A stretch of DNA of 55,537 nt from Burkholderiaceae bacterium (lineage in GTDB: Bacteria; Pseudomonadota; Gammaproteobacteria; Burkholderiales; Burkholderiaceae_C): the NCBI GenBank assembly GCA_030653255.1, contig JAURZS010000111.1, positions 1 through 55,537 of the forward strand, in the 5' to 3' direction. The position numbers and the translations under genes are program-made. This document shows, one piece after another, positions 22,333 to 31,202 of the stretch. Position 1 is the stretch's first letter; each line of letters starts with the position of its first letter. The notes below the pieces were generated by a model, which saw only the letters and a program-made list of their open reading frames with translations, did no database searches and was not told where the DNA came from.

Positions 22333-24477
22333 ATGAAGCATCGTCTCGCCAGTCTCTCCATCGCCGTCGGCGTTCTCCTGACGGGCATGGCAGGGGCCGC
22401 CCATGCGCAGGGGCGTGCGGAGCCGATCACCCTGAATTTCGCCAACGCCGACATCGAGGCCGTGGCCCGCACCATGGCCACCATCACCGGCCGCAACGTC
22501 GTGGTGGACCCGCGCGTCAAGGGCACCATGACGCTGGTCACCGAGCGCGCCGTGCCGCCCGCCACCGCCTTCAACCAGTTCCTGGCCGCCTTGCGGCTGC
22601 AGGGCTTTGCCGTGGTGGAAGCCGCCGGCCTGTACAAGATCGTGCCCGAGGCGGATGCCAAGCTGCAGGGCAGTTCGGTCTCGGTGGCTTCGCCCAACGC
22701 GCCCACGGCAGCCGGCGCCAACCAGATCGTGACGCAGATCTTCCGGCTCAACTACGAGACCGCTGCCAATCTGGTGCCGGTGCTGCGCCCGCTGATCAGC
22801 CCCAACAACACCATCAACGTCAATCCGGGCAACAACTCGCTGGTGATCACCGACTATGCCGACAATCTGCAGCGCATGGCCCGCATCGTCGCCGCGCTCG
22901 ATGTGGCCAATGCCGGCGACGTCGAGGTCATTGCGCTGCAACACGCCATCGCCACCGACCTCGCGCCTCTGGTGCTGCGACTGATCGAGTCCGGTTCGGC
23001 CGCAGCCGCCGCAGGGCAGGGCCAGACCGACACCTCGTTCCGCACCACACTGGTCGCCGAGCCGCGCAGCAATGCGCTGATCCTGCGTGCGGCCAATCCG
23101 GCCCGCGCGGCCCTCGTCAGGTCTCTGGTGGAACGCCTGGACCGGCCCTCGGCAGTCAGCACCAATGGCGCGGCCGGTAATATCTATGTCGTCTATCTGA
23201 AGAACGCCGATGCCACCAAGCTTGCGGTGACACTGCGCGCGGCACTCGCCGGCGAGTCCCGATCTGGTGCGGCCAGCGGCACCGGCTCCACCCCGCTACC
23301 GCTCCCCGTGGCGGCCAGCACCACAGGCAACAGTGGCTCCGGTTCGGCATCGTCGGTGTTGTCGGGCGGGCCGCTCGGCAGCAGTTCGGGCGGCGGCAAC
23401 CTGCCTTCGACCGGCGGACAGATCCAGGCCGATGCCGCCACCAACTCGCTGATCATCACCGCGCCCGAGCCTCAGTACCGGCAACTGCGTGCAGTCATCG
23501 ACAAGCTCGACGGGCGGCGCGCCCAGGTGCTGGTGGAGAGTCTCATCGTCGAAGTCAACGCCGACAAGGCCGCCGAGTTCGGCATCCAGTGGCAGACCGT
23601 CCTGGGCCAGAAGGGCGACACCAACATTGGCTTGCTGGGCACCAACTCCAGCATCGGTGGCACCAATATCCTGAGCCTGGCCACGGCGGCGCCGGGCACG
23701 GTTGCCCCGGCCAGTGGGCTGAATTTCGGCATCGGCCATCAGGTCAATGGCCGCTACCTGCTGGGTTTCCTGGCGCGCTTCCTGGAGAGCAAGGGCGACG
23801 GCAATGTGCTGTCCACGCCCAACCTGCTGACCCTGGACAACGAAGAGGCGCGCATCGTGATCGGCCAGAACGTGCCCTTCGTCACTGGCCAGTACACCAA
23901 CACCGGCAGCAGCACTTCCACGGTCAACCCATTCCAGACCATAGAGCGCAAGGACGTCGGCCTGACGCTGCGCGTGCGTCCCCAGATCAGCGAGAACGGC
24001 ACGGTCAAGATGTCGATCTTCCAGGAGGTCTCCAGCGTGCAGGCCTCCACCATCAACAATCCGAGCGGGCCAACGACCAACAAGCGCTCGATCGAATCGA
24101 ACGTGGTCGTTGACGACGGCACCATCATCGTGCTGGGCGGACTGCTGCAGGACGAGTACTCCGGCAACCAGGAAAAAGTGCCGGGCATCGGCGACATTCC
24201 CCTGTTTGGCAATTTGTTCAAGAGCGAGACGCGCAGCCGCAGAAAGACCAACCTCATGGTCTTTCTGCGGCCCGTCGTCGTGCGCGACAACGCCACCAGC
24301 GACAGCCTGGCCATCGACCGCTACGAGACCATCCGCGCCTTGCAGCAAAACCAGCAGCCCCAGCCCAACGTCATGCTGCCCGGCGTGACCTCCGCGCCTG
24401 TGCTGCCGGCCATGCGCTTCGCGCCCGCGCAGCAGAACACGCCGCCTGCGGCCGTGCCCCAGCCACTGCTGCGATAA
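22333..24477 (+). CDS. gspD: Type II secretion outer-membrane secretin GspD
   Basis: 714 aa; signal peptide, [69 protein letters not shown]. Confidence 0.97.
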
Positions 24478-24487
24478 GCCTGCGGCC

Positions 24488-25876
24488 ATGCGCTACCCCC
24501 TGCCCTACGCATTCGCGCGCAGTGCCCAGCTCCTGCTGGAGGATGACGGGACAGCGCTGACGCTCTGGCACGACGGCCGGCCCGCGTCCAGCCCGTGGAG
24601 CGAGGTGATGCGCAAGTACCCCGTGCAGCAGGTGCAGCAACTCGACCCGGCGGCGCTTGCCAACCGCATCAGCAGCGCCTATGCGCAAGGCGAATCCAGC
24701 GCCGCCACGGTGGTCAGCGAAGTCGAGAGCGATGCCGACCTCTCGCGCATCATGCAGGAACTCCCGGCGGTCGAAGACCTGCTGGAGACCAGCGATGACG
24801 CGCCCATCATCCGCATGCTCAATGCCTTGCTGACACAGGCCGCCCGCGACGGCGCCAGCGACATCCACATCGAGCCCTACGAGCGGCATTCCAGCGTGCG
24901 CTTCCGTGTTGACGGCACGCTGCGTGAAGTGGTGAGCCCCAACCGCGCGCTGCACGCGGCACTGATCTCGCGGCTCAAGATCATGGCCGACCTGGACATC
25001 GCCGAGAAGCGCCTGCCGCAGGACGGCCGCATATCGCTGCGCATTGGCACGCGCGCCGTCGATGTGCGCGTGAGCACCCTGCCCAGCGCCCACGGCGAAC
25101 GCGCCGTGCTGCGCCTGCTCGACAAGTCCGGCGCCAAGCTGAGCCTGGAGTCGGTGGGCATGGAGGGCGAGACCCTGCGGCGTTTTCTGGCGCTGATCGC
25201 GCAGCCCCACGGCATCATCCTGGTCACCGGCCCGACCGGCTCGGGCAAGACCACCACGCTTTATGCCGCGTTGAGCCGGTTGGACGCAGGGCGCAGCAAC
25301 ATCATGACCGTGGAAGACCCGATCGAGTACGAACTGCCCGGTGTCGGCCAGACACAGGTCAACGCCAAGATCGATCTGGACTTTGCCCGGGCGCTGCGCG
25401 CCATCCTGCGCCAGGACCCGGACGTCATCATGATCGGCGAGATCCGCGACTACGAGACCGCCCAGATCGCGATCCAGGCTTCTCTCACAGGCCATCTGGT
25501 GCTGGCCACGCTGCACACCAATGACGCGGCCAGCGCTGTCACGCGCCTGAGCGACATGGGCGTGGAACCCTTCCTGCTGAGCTCCAGCCTGCTGGGTGTG
25601 CTGGCGCAAAGACTGGTGCGAAAGCTGTGCACCGCCTGCGCCGGCGCCGGCTGCACGGTCTGTGGCCAGACCGGTTATCAGGGTCGCACAGGCGTGTTTG
25701 AACTGCTGGTGACCAACGACGCGATTCGGGCACAGATCCACAACCGCGCGGCCGAAGCGGACATCCGCGACACCGCACTCAGGTCCGGCATGACCCTGAT
25801 GCGCGACGACGGCGAGCGGCTGGTGAGCACAGGCATCACCTCGCGCGAGGAACTGGTGCGCGTCACGCGCGACTGA
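24488..25876 (+). CDS. gspE: Type II secretion ATPase GspE
   Basis: Walker [23 protein letters not shown], Walker B-type [23 protein letters not shown]. Confidence 0.97.
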
Positions 25877-28083: not shown

Positions 28084-29721
28084 TCAGCGCAGGCCTGGAC
28101 GGCAGGGCGCATAGGCGTCCATGCCGACCTGATAGGCCGCAGTGCTCACATCCATCAGGCCCAGCACCGAATGGAAATAGTTGTCATGCGACACTTCGGC
28201 GTCACGCCGCCCGCGCAGACAAGCGGTCGTCAAACCGGTGGTCTTCTCATAGCCTGGAGACAGCCACGTGACCCAGGGCACTTTCTTCTGCACGTCCGGC
28301 GCCACCGCGTAGGGCAGGCCATGCAGATACAGGTTGTTCTCGCCCAGCGACTCGCCATGGTCGGAGACATAGACCATGGCCGTGTCGGCCGTAGCTTGCT
28401 GGCGTTTGAGCCAGTCGATAGTCTGCCCCAGAAAGTGGTCGGTGTAGACAATGGTGTTGTCGTAGGCGTTGATCACGCTGTCACGACTGCAGTCCTGCAG
28501 CGCGGAACTGGTGCACTCAGGCATGAACCGCTTGAAAGACTTCGGGGACCGCCGGTAATAGGCGGGGCCGTGGCTGCCCATCTGATGCAGCACAACCACG
28601 ACGCCGCGTGCGCGGCGCGCCGCATCGAGCGCGGCGATGCGATCCTCCAGCCCTTGCAGCATGATCTCGTCCAGACACTCACCGCTGGCGCAGAATTTCG
28701 GGTCTTTCAGGTCCGCTGTGCTCACAGTGGGAACGCGCGCGCAGACCCCTTTGCAACCTGACTGGTTGTCCACCCACAAGACGGCCAGGCCGGCGCGCTG
28801 CAGAACATCCAGCAGGCCCTCGAAAGCGGTCTTGCGGTCCTCGAACTTGTCGCGGGTCAGATTCGAGAACATGCAAGGCACCGAAGCTGCCGTACTGGTC
28901 CCGCAAGACCATGCATTGCGAAAACTTGCCGCCTGTGCCCGCTCCATCTCGGGCGTGGTCGGTCGGGCGTAGCCGTTGATCGAAAAATTTGCGCTGCGCG
29001 CCGTCTCTCCCAGCACCAGCAACAACAGCGGCGGCCGCGCACGCCCCGCATGGCTGCGTCCGAGGCGCGCGTCCTCACCCACAGGGACAAGCACGGAGTC
29101 ATTCCGCTCCAAGGGCCGCAACGCCACGCGGGCCAGCGAGTACACCCCATTGAGCGGGTTGATCAGGTAGCGGACCTCCTTGTGATTTCGCATCAGCGAG
29201 GCCATCGGCTGGAAAATGGCCACTGCGGCGATCAGCATCATGCACAAGGCCGACACGGCCACCAGCGGATTGCGCAGCAACTGCCTGCGCAGCCCCCCGT
29301 AGTTCACCGGCTGGCGCCACAGCAGCCAGATCGGGAGCAGCGCGAACAGGGCCAGGGACAGCAGCATCTTCACGCTGAACAATCCGCTCGCTTCGCGCAC
29401 ATCGGTCTGCAGCAGGTTGTCGATCATCGTGGGGTCGATCACCACGCGGTAACCCCACATGAAGTAACTCATGGCCGCAGTGGCCAGCAGCAGCGCCGTG
29501 ACCGCAGGCTTGAGCGTCAGCCGCCATGCCAGCGCGCCGAGAAGCGCCGCGAGCGCGCCCCAAATCATCACCAGCATGCCCAGACCAAACGCCGCGCCCC
29601 CCAGGCCATCGAGCATGCTCAGTTCACCCAGCTTGCGCCACAAGGCTCCGTTACCCACCAGCGCCATCCACAGACTGGAAAGCGTGACAACCCACAGGGG
29701 GGAGACAGCAACACGTTTCAT
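28084..29721 (-). CDS. eptA: Phosphoethanolamine-lipid A transferase (EptA/MCR family)
   Basis: Start at MKRVAVSPLWVVTLSSLWMA; LVLGETARSANFSINGYARPTTPEM, MGSHGPAYYRRSP, VYVSDHGESLGENNLYLHGLPYAVAP. Confidence 0.95.
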   Translation of the reverse strand: MKRVAVSPLWVVTLSSLWMALVGNGALWRKLGELSMLDGLGGAAFGLGMLVMIWGALAALLGALAWRLTLKPAVTALLLATAAMSYFMWGYRVVIDPTMIDNLLQTDVREASGLFSVKMLLSLALFALLPIWLLWRQPVNYGGLRRQLLRNPLVAVSALCMMLIAAVAIFQPMASLMRNHKEVRYLINPLNGVYSLARVALRPLERNDSVLVPVGEDARLGRSHAGRARPPLLLLVLGETARSANFSINGYARPTTPEMERAQAASFRNAWSCGTSTAASVPCMFSNLTRDKFEDRKTAFEGLLDVLQRAGLAVLWVDNQSGCKGVCARVPTVSTADLKDPKFCASGECLDEIMLQGLEDRIAALDAARRARGVVVVLHQMGSHGPAYYRRSPKSFKRFMPECTSSALQDCSRDSVINAYDNTIVYTDHFLGQTIDWLKRQQATADTAMVYVSDHGESLGENNLYLHGLPYAVAPDVQKKVPWVTWLSPGYEKTTGLTTACLRGRRDAEVSHDNYFHSVLGLMDVSTAAYQVGMDAYAPCRPGLR

Positions 29722-30401
29722 TCGACAAACTTCCCGCTGCGGCGCGCGCGCTCGAACGCCCAGTTCACCATCCAGCCCACGATCCCGCAGAGCCAGCCCG
29801 TCCATAGTGTATGGCTCAGGAAATGGGCGCCGCGCAGCTGCTGCGCGCCTCCCAGTATGAGCCCGGCAGCGATGGCCACCGCAAGCCAGACCGGCGCCAG
29901 TTCCGGCTGCTCGTCACGCAAGGCGAAAAATCCCCCGACAAAGGCAAAGCCGGTGGCGGCATGCCCGGCCGGAAAGCACCGCCCGGCACCGCCATCGGTC
30001 CCGAACCAGCCACTCCAGTGGGAGATATGGCGGGCCACACCGCCGAATTCGGCCAGATCCCATGGGCAACTGCTGCCGCTGGCAGATTTCAGCAAAGTGA
30101 TGATGGCGCTGGCCAGCAGAGCCGACACCGGCAACTGCAGGCGACGCCAGAAGGGCAGACGGACCAGCGGCCCCACAGGCCAGGTCACGCACAGCGACAG
30201 CATCAGCAACAGCACCCAGGCCGCATACTTGGCGCCATCGTGCAGCACATGGGTGAGCACCCAGGAGTCGCGCAGGGCAAACCCCTGACTCCCCCCGAAT
30301 TCGTGCGCAAGGGCCAGATCGAGCCCCGAGGCGTCCCAGCTCAGCAAGAACGCGAGCAAGCCCGTGGCCCACCAGGCAAAGCGGATATTTGGATTGGACA
30401 T
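29718..30401 (-). CDS. PAP2-family membrane phosphatase
   Basis: KSASGSSCPWDL ... CFPAGHAATGFAFVGGFFALRD ... GAHFLSHTLWTGWLCG; 4-nt overlap with eptA. Confidence 0.93.
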   Translation of the reverse strand: MSNPNIRFAWWATGLLAFLLSWDASGLDLALAHEFGGSQGFALRDSWVLTHVLHDGAKYAAWVLLLMLSLCVTWPVGPLVRLPFWRRLQLPVSALLASAIITLLKSASGSSCPWDLAEFGGVARHISHWSGWFGTDGGAGRCFPAGHAATGFAFVGGFFALRDEQPELAPVWLAVAIAAGLILGGAQQLRGAHFLSHTLWTGWLCGIVGWMVNWAFERARRSGKFVE

Positions 30402-30424
30402 GCTTGGCAGCTTGAAGCAGGCTG

Positions 30425-30441
30425 CTTAAGCCACCCTTAAG
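30425..30441 (-). promoter_or_regulatory. PmrA/QseB-type response-regulator box
   Basis: CTTAAG-CCACC-CTTAAG exactly matches the published PmrA consensus (C/T)TTAA(G/T)-N5-(C/T)TTAA(G/T); 24 nt from the PAP2 ATG. Confidence 0.75.
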
Positions 30442-30448
30442 CTTTCAG

Positions 30449-30464
30449 CATTCCCCGGGGAATG
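30449..30464. promoter_or_regulatory. 16-bp perfect palindrome upstream of VIT1-NRAMP genes
   Basis: CATTCCCCGGGGAATG. Confidence 0.5.
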
Positions 30465-30500
30465 ACGCCTGTCGCCGCAAAACAGGTATGCTCGGCAGAC

Positions 30501-31202
30501 ATGGCCCACCGACACTTTGAGCGTCACCGCACCGACCGCATCGGCTGGCTGCGTGCGGCCGTGCTGGGTGCCAACGACGGCATCGTCTCCACGGCCAGCC
30601 TGATCGTCGGCGTGGCCGCCGCCGGAGCCTCATCCACCGACATTCTGCGTGCCGGGCTGGCTGGCCTGGTAGCGGGCGCCATGTCCATGGCCGCCGGTGA
30701 ATACATCTCCGTGCATTCCCAGGCCGACACCGAAAAAGCCGATCTGGCCCGGGAAAGTGCCGAAATCGAAGCCGATCCCGTCGCCGAACACCGCGAGCTG
30801 GCCGGCATCTACGTCGGCAGGGGCCTGGACCCCCAGCTTGCCCAGCAGGTGGCCGAACAATTAATGGCCCACGACGCGCTGGGCGCCCATGCCCGGGACG
30901 AGCTCGAGATTTCGAGCGCCTTCAGCGCACGTCCCGTTCAAGCCGCTTTGGCCTCCGCCGGATCCTTTGCCGTAGGTGCGGTGTTGCCGCTGGCGGTAGC
31001 GGTGATCGCCGCCAAAAGCAGCCCTACGCTGTGGGTCGGCGGCACCAGCCTGGTGTTCCTGGCGATGCTGGGTGCGCTGGCGGCGAAAGCCGGCGGCGCG
31101 AATGTCGTCTACGGCGCCTGGCGCGTCACCTTCTGGGGCGTGATGGCCATGGCCATCACTGCTGCGGTCGGCAAATGGTTCGGCAGCATCGGCGGACTCT
31201 AG
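30501..31202 (+). CDS. VIT1/CCC1 family Fe/Mn transporter
   Basis: MAHRHFERHRTDRIGWLRAAVLGANDGIVSTASLIVGVAAAGASS...GAMSMAAGEYISVHSQADTEKADL. Confidence 0.94.
   Translation: MAHRHFERHRTDRIGWLRAAVLGANDGIVSTASLIVGVAAAGASSTDILRAGLAGLVAGAMSMAAGEYISVHSQADTEKADLARESAEIEADPVAEHRELAGIYVGRGLDPQLAQQVAEQLMAHDALGAHARDELEISSAFSARPVQAALASAGSFAVGAVLPLAVAVIAAKSSPTLWVGGTSLVFLAMLGALAAKAGGANVVYGAWRVTFWGVMAMAITAAVGKWFGSIGGL

Follow-up and report, generated by a model that had tools for sequence, protein, structure and literature searches.

The sequence CTTAAGCCACCCTTAAG, read directly at positions 30425-30441 of the window (the whole 55.5-kb stretch of DNA analysed here, 66% G+C), is an exact CTTAAG-N5-CTTAAG box, and it is probably where an OmpR-type response regulator of the PmrA/QseB class binds to activate the neighbouring PAP2-eptA genes, with the regulator-kinase pair having been relocated to another contig (C22) of the same genome. 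The initial annotation had taken the box for a PmrA/QseB-class control site of these lipid A genes, and comparison with relatives, in which orthologs of the C22 regulator flank the box, supports that reading.

The box fits the PmrA-box definition of two YTTAAK half-sites with 5 bp spacing and, because CTTAAG is self-complementary, presents the identical doublet on both strands; its coordinates and symmetry are as first annotated. CTTAAG occurs only twice in the window, both times inside the box, and YTTAAK-N5-YTTAAK did not occur in 100 dinucleotide shuffles of the window. A motif scan of the whole 2.53-Mb genome (90.6% complete), as had been proposed, returned the box as its single strict YTTAAK-N5-YTTAAK match, and six further places match CTTAAG-N5-CTTAAG when up to two mismatches are allowed, each with two mismatches. 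The earlier expectation that such a doublet is unlikely by chance agrees with its absence from the shuffles and with its conservation in relatives, and it is this conservation that most strongly places the box beyond chance.

The box lies upstream of two genes on the minus strand, with 23 nt between it and the ATG (30401) of a PAP2-family phosphatase gene (29718-30401; Pfam PF01569, 48.3 bits, cut-off 27.2). The stop codon of this gene overlaps the ATG of an eptA-like gene (28084-29721) as ATGA at 29718-29721, and the two are therefore consistent with one operon in which PAP2 comes first. The eptA-like protein contains PF08019 and PF00884 and belongs to the phosphoethanolamine--lipid A transferase family NF028537 (569.5 bits, cut-off 500), and it scores 524.1 bits against the narrower EptA equivalog NF008619 (cut-off 660). 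Elsewhere in the window, secretin-like and GspE-like ORFs at 22333-25876, recognised by eye, apparently form a type II secretion locus.

Relatives of the eptA-like gene were found mostly in Burkholderiaceae/Comamonadaceae genomes. The box recurs upstream of PAP2 in five loci (L005, L006, L011, L028, and L030), where the gene across the box encodes an OmpR-type response regulator 64-71% identical to the C22 regulator, and a more divergent box lies directly upstream of eptA in four others (L045, L047, L049, and L051). In general, the gene facing PAP2(-eptA) across the box in Burkholderiaceae relatives is a PmrA/QseB-class response regulator, usually with its kinase, and the box sits between two divergent units whose start codons are often 22-24 nt away on both sides. 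Viewed from the regulator, C22-type proteins were found in 35 of 201 family genomes (E at most 1e-60), and a box with at least 10 of 12 half-site matches lies within 130 nt upstream of the regulator in 23 of 29 non-self ortholog loci (shuffle mean 0.03), with PAP2 on the facing side in 21 of these 23. Elsewhere in the family, the exact CTTAAG-N5-CTTAAG was found 25 times, eight of them between a C22-type regulator and PAP2 as read gene by gene. The half-sites and their spacing are kept beside one regulator family, and the N5 varies. Other arrangements also occur: in G001 the regulator and eptA share a contig and a strand with about 1.5 kb between them, a proximity that also speaks for their pairing, and some genomes (G186, G228, and G234) have two copies of the regulator. 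A PAP2-facing ortholog in L089 (G099 C1:1245626-1246306) carries one in-frame TGA and is either a pseudogene or affected by a sequence error. In L064 (G173), three tandem CTTAAG with 11-bp spacing (positions 1501-1528) lie upstream of a response regulator of the divergent type, and L056 (G022), from the same genus, has three CTTCAG at the same spacing.

The initial annotation placed the regulator outside the window, and it was indeed on contig C22 that a PmrA-like gene was found whose orthologs flank the box in relatives. The accompanying suggestion that pmrAB or qseBC might be present elsewhere in the genome holds in part, in that C22 encodes a PmrA-like regulator with a kinase as the next gene, but both score below the strict curated cut-offs. 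The best NCBIfam match of the regulator is the PmrA model NF007928 (221.4 bits, cut-off 330), followed by the QseB model NF007663 (195.4 bits, cut-off 345), and its best PDB match is BasR; the kinase is closest to QseC (NF007664, 162.2 bits, cut-off 475) and reaches 108.4 bits with the PmrB model NF008025 (cut-off 314). Since these equivalog cut-offs are not reached, the proteins are not classed as PmrA, PmrB, QseB, or QseC, and the regulator is PmrA-like rather than PmrA. The kinase has a single ExxE (residues 37-40), and a crude pattern picked up the segment EADEL at only 5 of 28 ortholog loci, which is too weak to be taken as a sign of iron sensing.

Complete regulators of the PmrA/QseB/TctD subclass number four in this genome (on C22, C28, C105, and C203), and a further OmpR-like (QseB/PhoP-like) regulator on C6 is cut by the contig end. 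The nine PF00486 matches probably represent eight genes, because the ends of C57 and C168 (L019 and L021 in G000) appear to share overlapping parts of one OmpR-family regulator gene. Among the four subclass regulators, whose DNA-binding domains are complete, only that of C22 keeps BasR's His193 together with His195; those of C28, C105, and C203 are about 43% identical to it, none with His193 and two without His195, and were rejected as partners of the box. An unlinked paralog was likewise rejected, as the sister of the C22 regulator in the tree is that of G079, which faces PAP2 and bears the box (support 100/95, in a bootstrap that had not fully settled). On the basis of this sister relationship, the C22 regulator is apparently the ancestral partner of the box and has relocated, leaving the box with PAP2-eptA. 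At its new position it is preceded by a sigma-70 gene of the rpoD type, and its start region, CACAATCGGGCCATG, follows the CACAAT-N6/7-ATG pattern that many orthologs show; no box was found at its own promoter. As the assembly is a draft, a chimeric contig is possible as the source of the rpoD-regulator junction.

What chiefly limits confidence in this reading is the recognition helix of the C22 regulator, in which N188, H193, and H195 are kept and position 196 is R, compared with N196 in PmrA. In the PmrA-DNA crystal structure, base-specific contacts in the major groove come from Asn188 and Asn196, with His195 packing on bases (PMC4660055), and an earlier docking model had favored His193 and His195 (PMC3973317). 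Across the family, residue 196 tracks base 4 of the half-site, as judged from linked pairs. Apart from C22, all 20 linked pairs with R196 have two TTCA half-sites, and of 34 counted with other residues, 33 have one or two TTAA half-sites, or 31 of 32 after removing two loci that had been counted twice (L148 = L006, L149 = L011); both TTAA and TTCA were allowed in the count, and the choice between candidate boxes drew partly on the -10. The Fisher value of 7e-14 for this association ignores shared descent, with most R196 cases forming one clade and L104 standing separately. That clade, a sister group with F193-S195-R196, faces PAP2 or eptA across GTTCAK-N5-GTTCAK boxes at the same -10 spacing. 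The orthologs linked to TTAA boxes have H196 or N196, and the exception is the C22 regulator, which has R196 and a TTAA box. A specificity code at residue 195 alone was rejected, for L064 and L056 share S195 and N196 and have CTTAAG and CTTCAG boxes, respectively. It is tempting to see here a family-wide code between residue 196 and base 4, with this genome caught midway through a switch (the regulator moved, its own box lost, R196 acquired, and the target still TTAA), although we regard this as rather doubtful.

Because the C22 regulator has R196 and the window box is TTAA, it is possible that the association is not strict, or that binding has been weakened or rewired. In the stronger form of this alternative, the C22 regulator would read the TTAA box poorly and the box would be a relic or serve some other regulator, perhaps one that the assembly lacks or truncates; in a 90.6%-complete draft another regulator may be missing. 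The R196/TTAA combination is unique among the linked pairs examined, the C22 regulator has lost its own box, and the only TTCA-type site in the genome with promoter-like geometry lies elsewhere, on C6 (L195, G000; 2220-2236), where GTTCAT-N5-GTTCAG is followed by CACAAT and, six bases on, an ATG, and precedes a small PepSY-like gene and the truncated response regulator. However, a relic would be expected to decay, whereas both half-sites in the window match the consensus perfectly and the -10 spacing is intact, and the C22 regulator has kept N188, H193, and H195. We therefore consider rewiring unlikely and retain activation by the relocated regulator, while counting the R196/TTAA mismatch, the boxless C22 promoter, and the truncated C6 regulator against it.

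The promoter geometry offers a further line of evidence. Of 27 boxes picked on box score alone, from related and hence non-independent sequences of about 18 or more genera, 23 have A at +12 from the box and 25 have T at +16, the surrounding DNA being rich in G+C. Sixteen of them have the first ATG at offset 22-24, and the start codon is usually at +23 to +25. The conserved nAnnnT at +11 to +16 fits a -10 element, which would put the transcription start at or next to the start codon. Together, the conserved -10 and start-codon spacings suggest activator-dependent promoters with leaderless mRNA, in agreement with an earlier caveat that a box so near the ATG might imply such a transcript. At PAP2-eptA, the putative -10 would be CAAGCT (30409-30414, minus strand), a poor match in which the A at +12 and the T at +16 are conserved, and no -35 element was seen; the predicted transcription start is near 30402 (30401-30403), at or beside the PAP2 ATG.

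We hypothesize that a dimer of the regulator, occupying both half-sites at about -39 to -23, would stand in for the -35 element and recruit RNA polymerase to the weak -10, giving a leaderless transcript. The ancestral order in the family would have been kinase-regulator, box, and PAP2-eptA, with the box between divergent units. Later, in the genome of the window, regulator and kinase would have moved behind rpoD as a pair that kept its CACAAT-N6-ATG start and lost the box, which remained at PAP2-eptA and now has VIT1-NRAMP on its other side. Binding, activation rather than repression, the transcription start, and continued action of the relocated regulator here are what we infer from the observed box, its conservation, synteny, and orthology.

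The genes now across from PAP2, on the plus strand, encode VIT1 (PF01988) and NRAMP (PF01566), and the initial annotation included them as possible targets. One symmetric box driving both PAP2-eptA and VIT1-NRAMP is conceivable, since either strand gives the same box, which in relatives lies between divergent units with start codons often equally near on either side. However, the sequence at +11 to +16 on the VIT1 side is TCCCCG, with no -10-like element at the required spacing, and VIT1 has a separate -10-like TATGCT at 30487-30492 ahead of its ATG at 30501. Further, VIT1 was not found beside PAP2 or eptA in the loci retrieved from 24 other genomes with VIT1. The inclusion of VIT1-NRAMP is unsupported on both counts, and two-way control appears quite improbable. 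Between the box and VIT1 lies a perfect 16-bp palindrome, CATTCCCCGGGGAATG (30449-30464), which might be an operator of VIT1-NRAMP's own; the relatives showed no matching palindrome ahead of VIT1.

Unphosphorylated QseB-type regulators may repress by covering a promoter, and the box does overlap the predicted -35 position. However, a promoter with a poor -10 and no visible -35 fits one that needs an activator, and repression of PAP2-eptA is accordingly given little credence. A chance repeat or an RNA hairpin without any regulator deserves practically none: GCTTAAG-N5-CTTAAGC is also a short inverted repeat, but no terminator was found at the box, its fold is not more stable than shuffles (z -0.68), and the conservation of half-sites and spacing around a varying N5 speaks against chance.

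The preferred reading, a PmrA-like regulator activating PAP2-eptA, invites comparison with known systems. The enteric PmrA (BasR)/PmrB box at pbgP and pmrC/eptA shares the CTTAAG half-site and the 5-bp spacing, and in Salmonella the second half-site is XTTAAT, 5 bp apart (PMC3973317). Both systems also have an OmpR-type regulator with His193 and His195 and a lipid A modification target. They differ in that the C22 proteins score well below the enteric models (221 bits for the regulator, cut-off 330; 108 for the kinase, cut-off 314), the regulator is divergent from or unlinked to its target, and PAP2 is the first gene. Whereas the PmrA box of K. pneumoniae pbgP lies at -170 from the start codon (PMC3973317), the Burkholderiaceae box is close to it, with leaderless geometry. 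Likeness to QseB/QseC is seen in the kinase, which matches QseC best (162 bits), and in the regulator, for which QseB is second best (195 bits), but the curated cut-offs (475 and 345, respectively) are much higher. In the pair of mcr-1 and hpap2 (PMC7559476), a PAP2 gene adjoins one for a phosphoethanolamine transferase, as the window PAP2 does; here, however, the order is PAP2 then transferase with a conserved regulator box ahead of the pair, and the proteins are far from the MCR-1 (326.7 of 1100 bits) and PAP2_near_MCR1 (32.6 of 475) models. Taken together, the site agrees with the PmrA consensus and would function as a PmrA box does, read by a PmrA-like regulator; the regulator and kinase fall short of the equivalog cut-offs. 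We found no description of this arrangement in Comamonadaceae in the open-access literature, nor of the combination of a divergent regulator, PAP2 as first gene, leaderless geometry, and a residue/box association.

On this reading, one two-component system is tied to the lipid A modification genes of Burkholderiaceae, and the promoter model of box, -10, and leaderless start would allow targets to be predicted purely from sequence. Two natural clades that differ in their boxes and, in a way that makes structural sense, in a residue would further provide a clean test of how specificity changes in OmpR-type regulators, and the genome of the window suggests that a regulator and its target can split with the box preserved.
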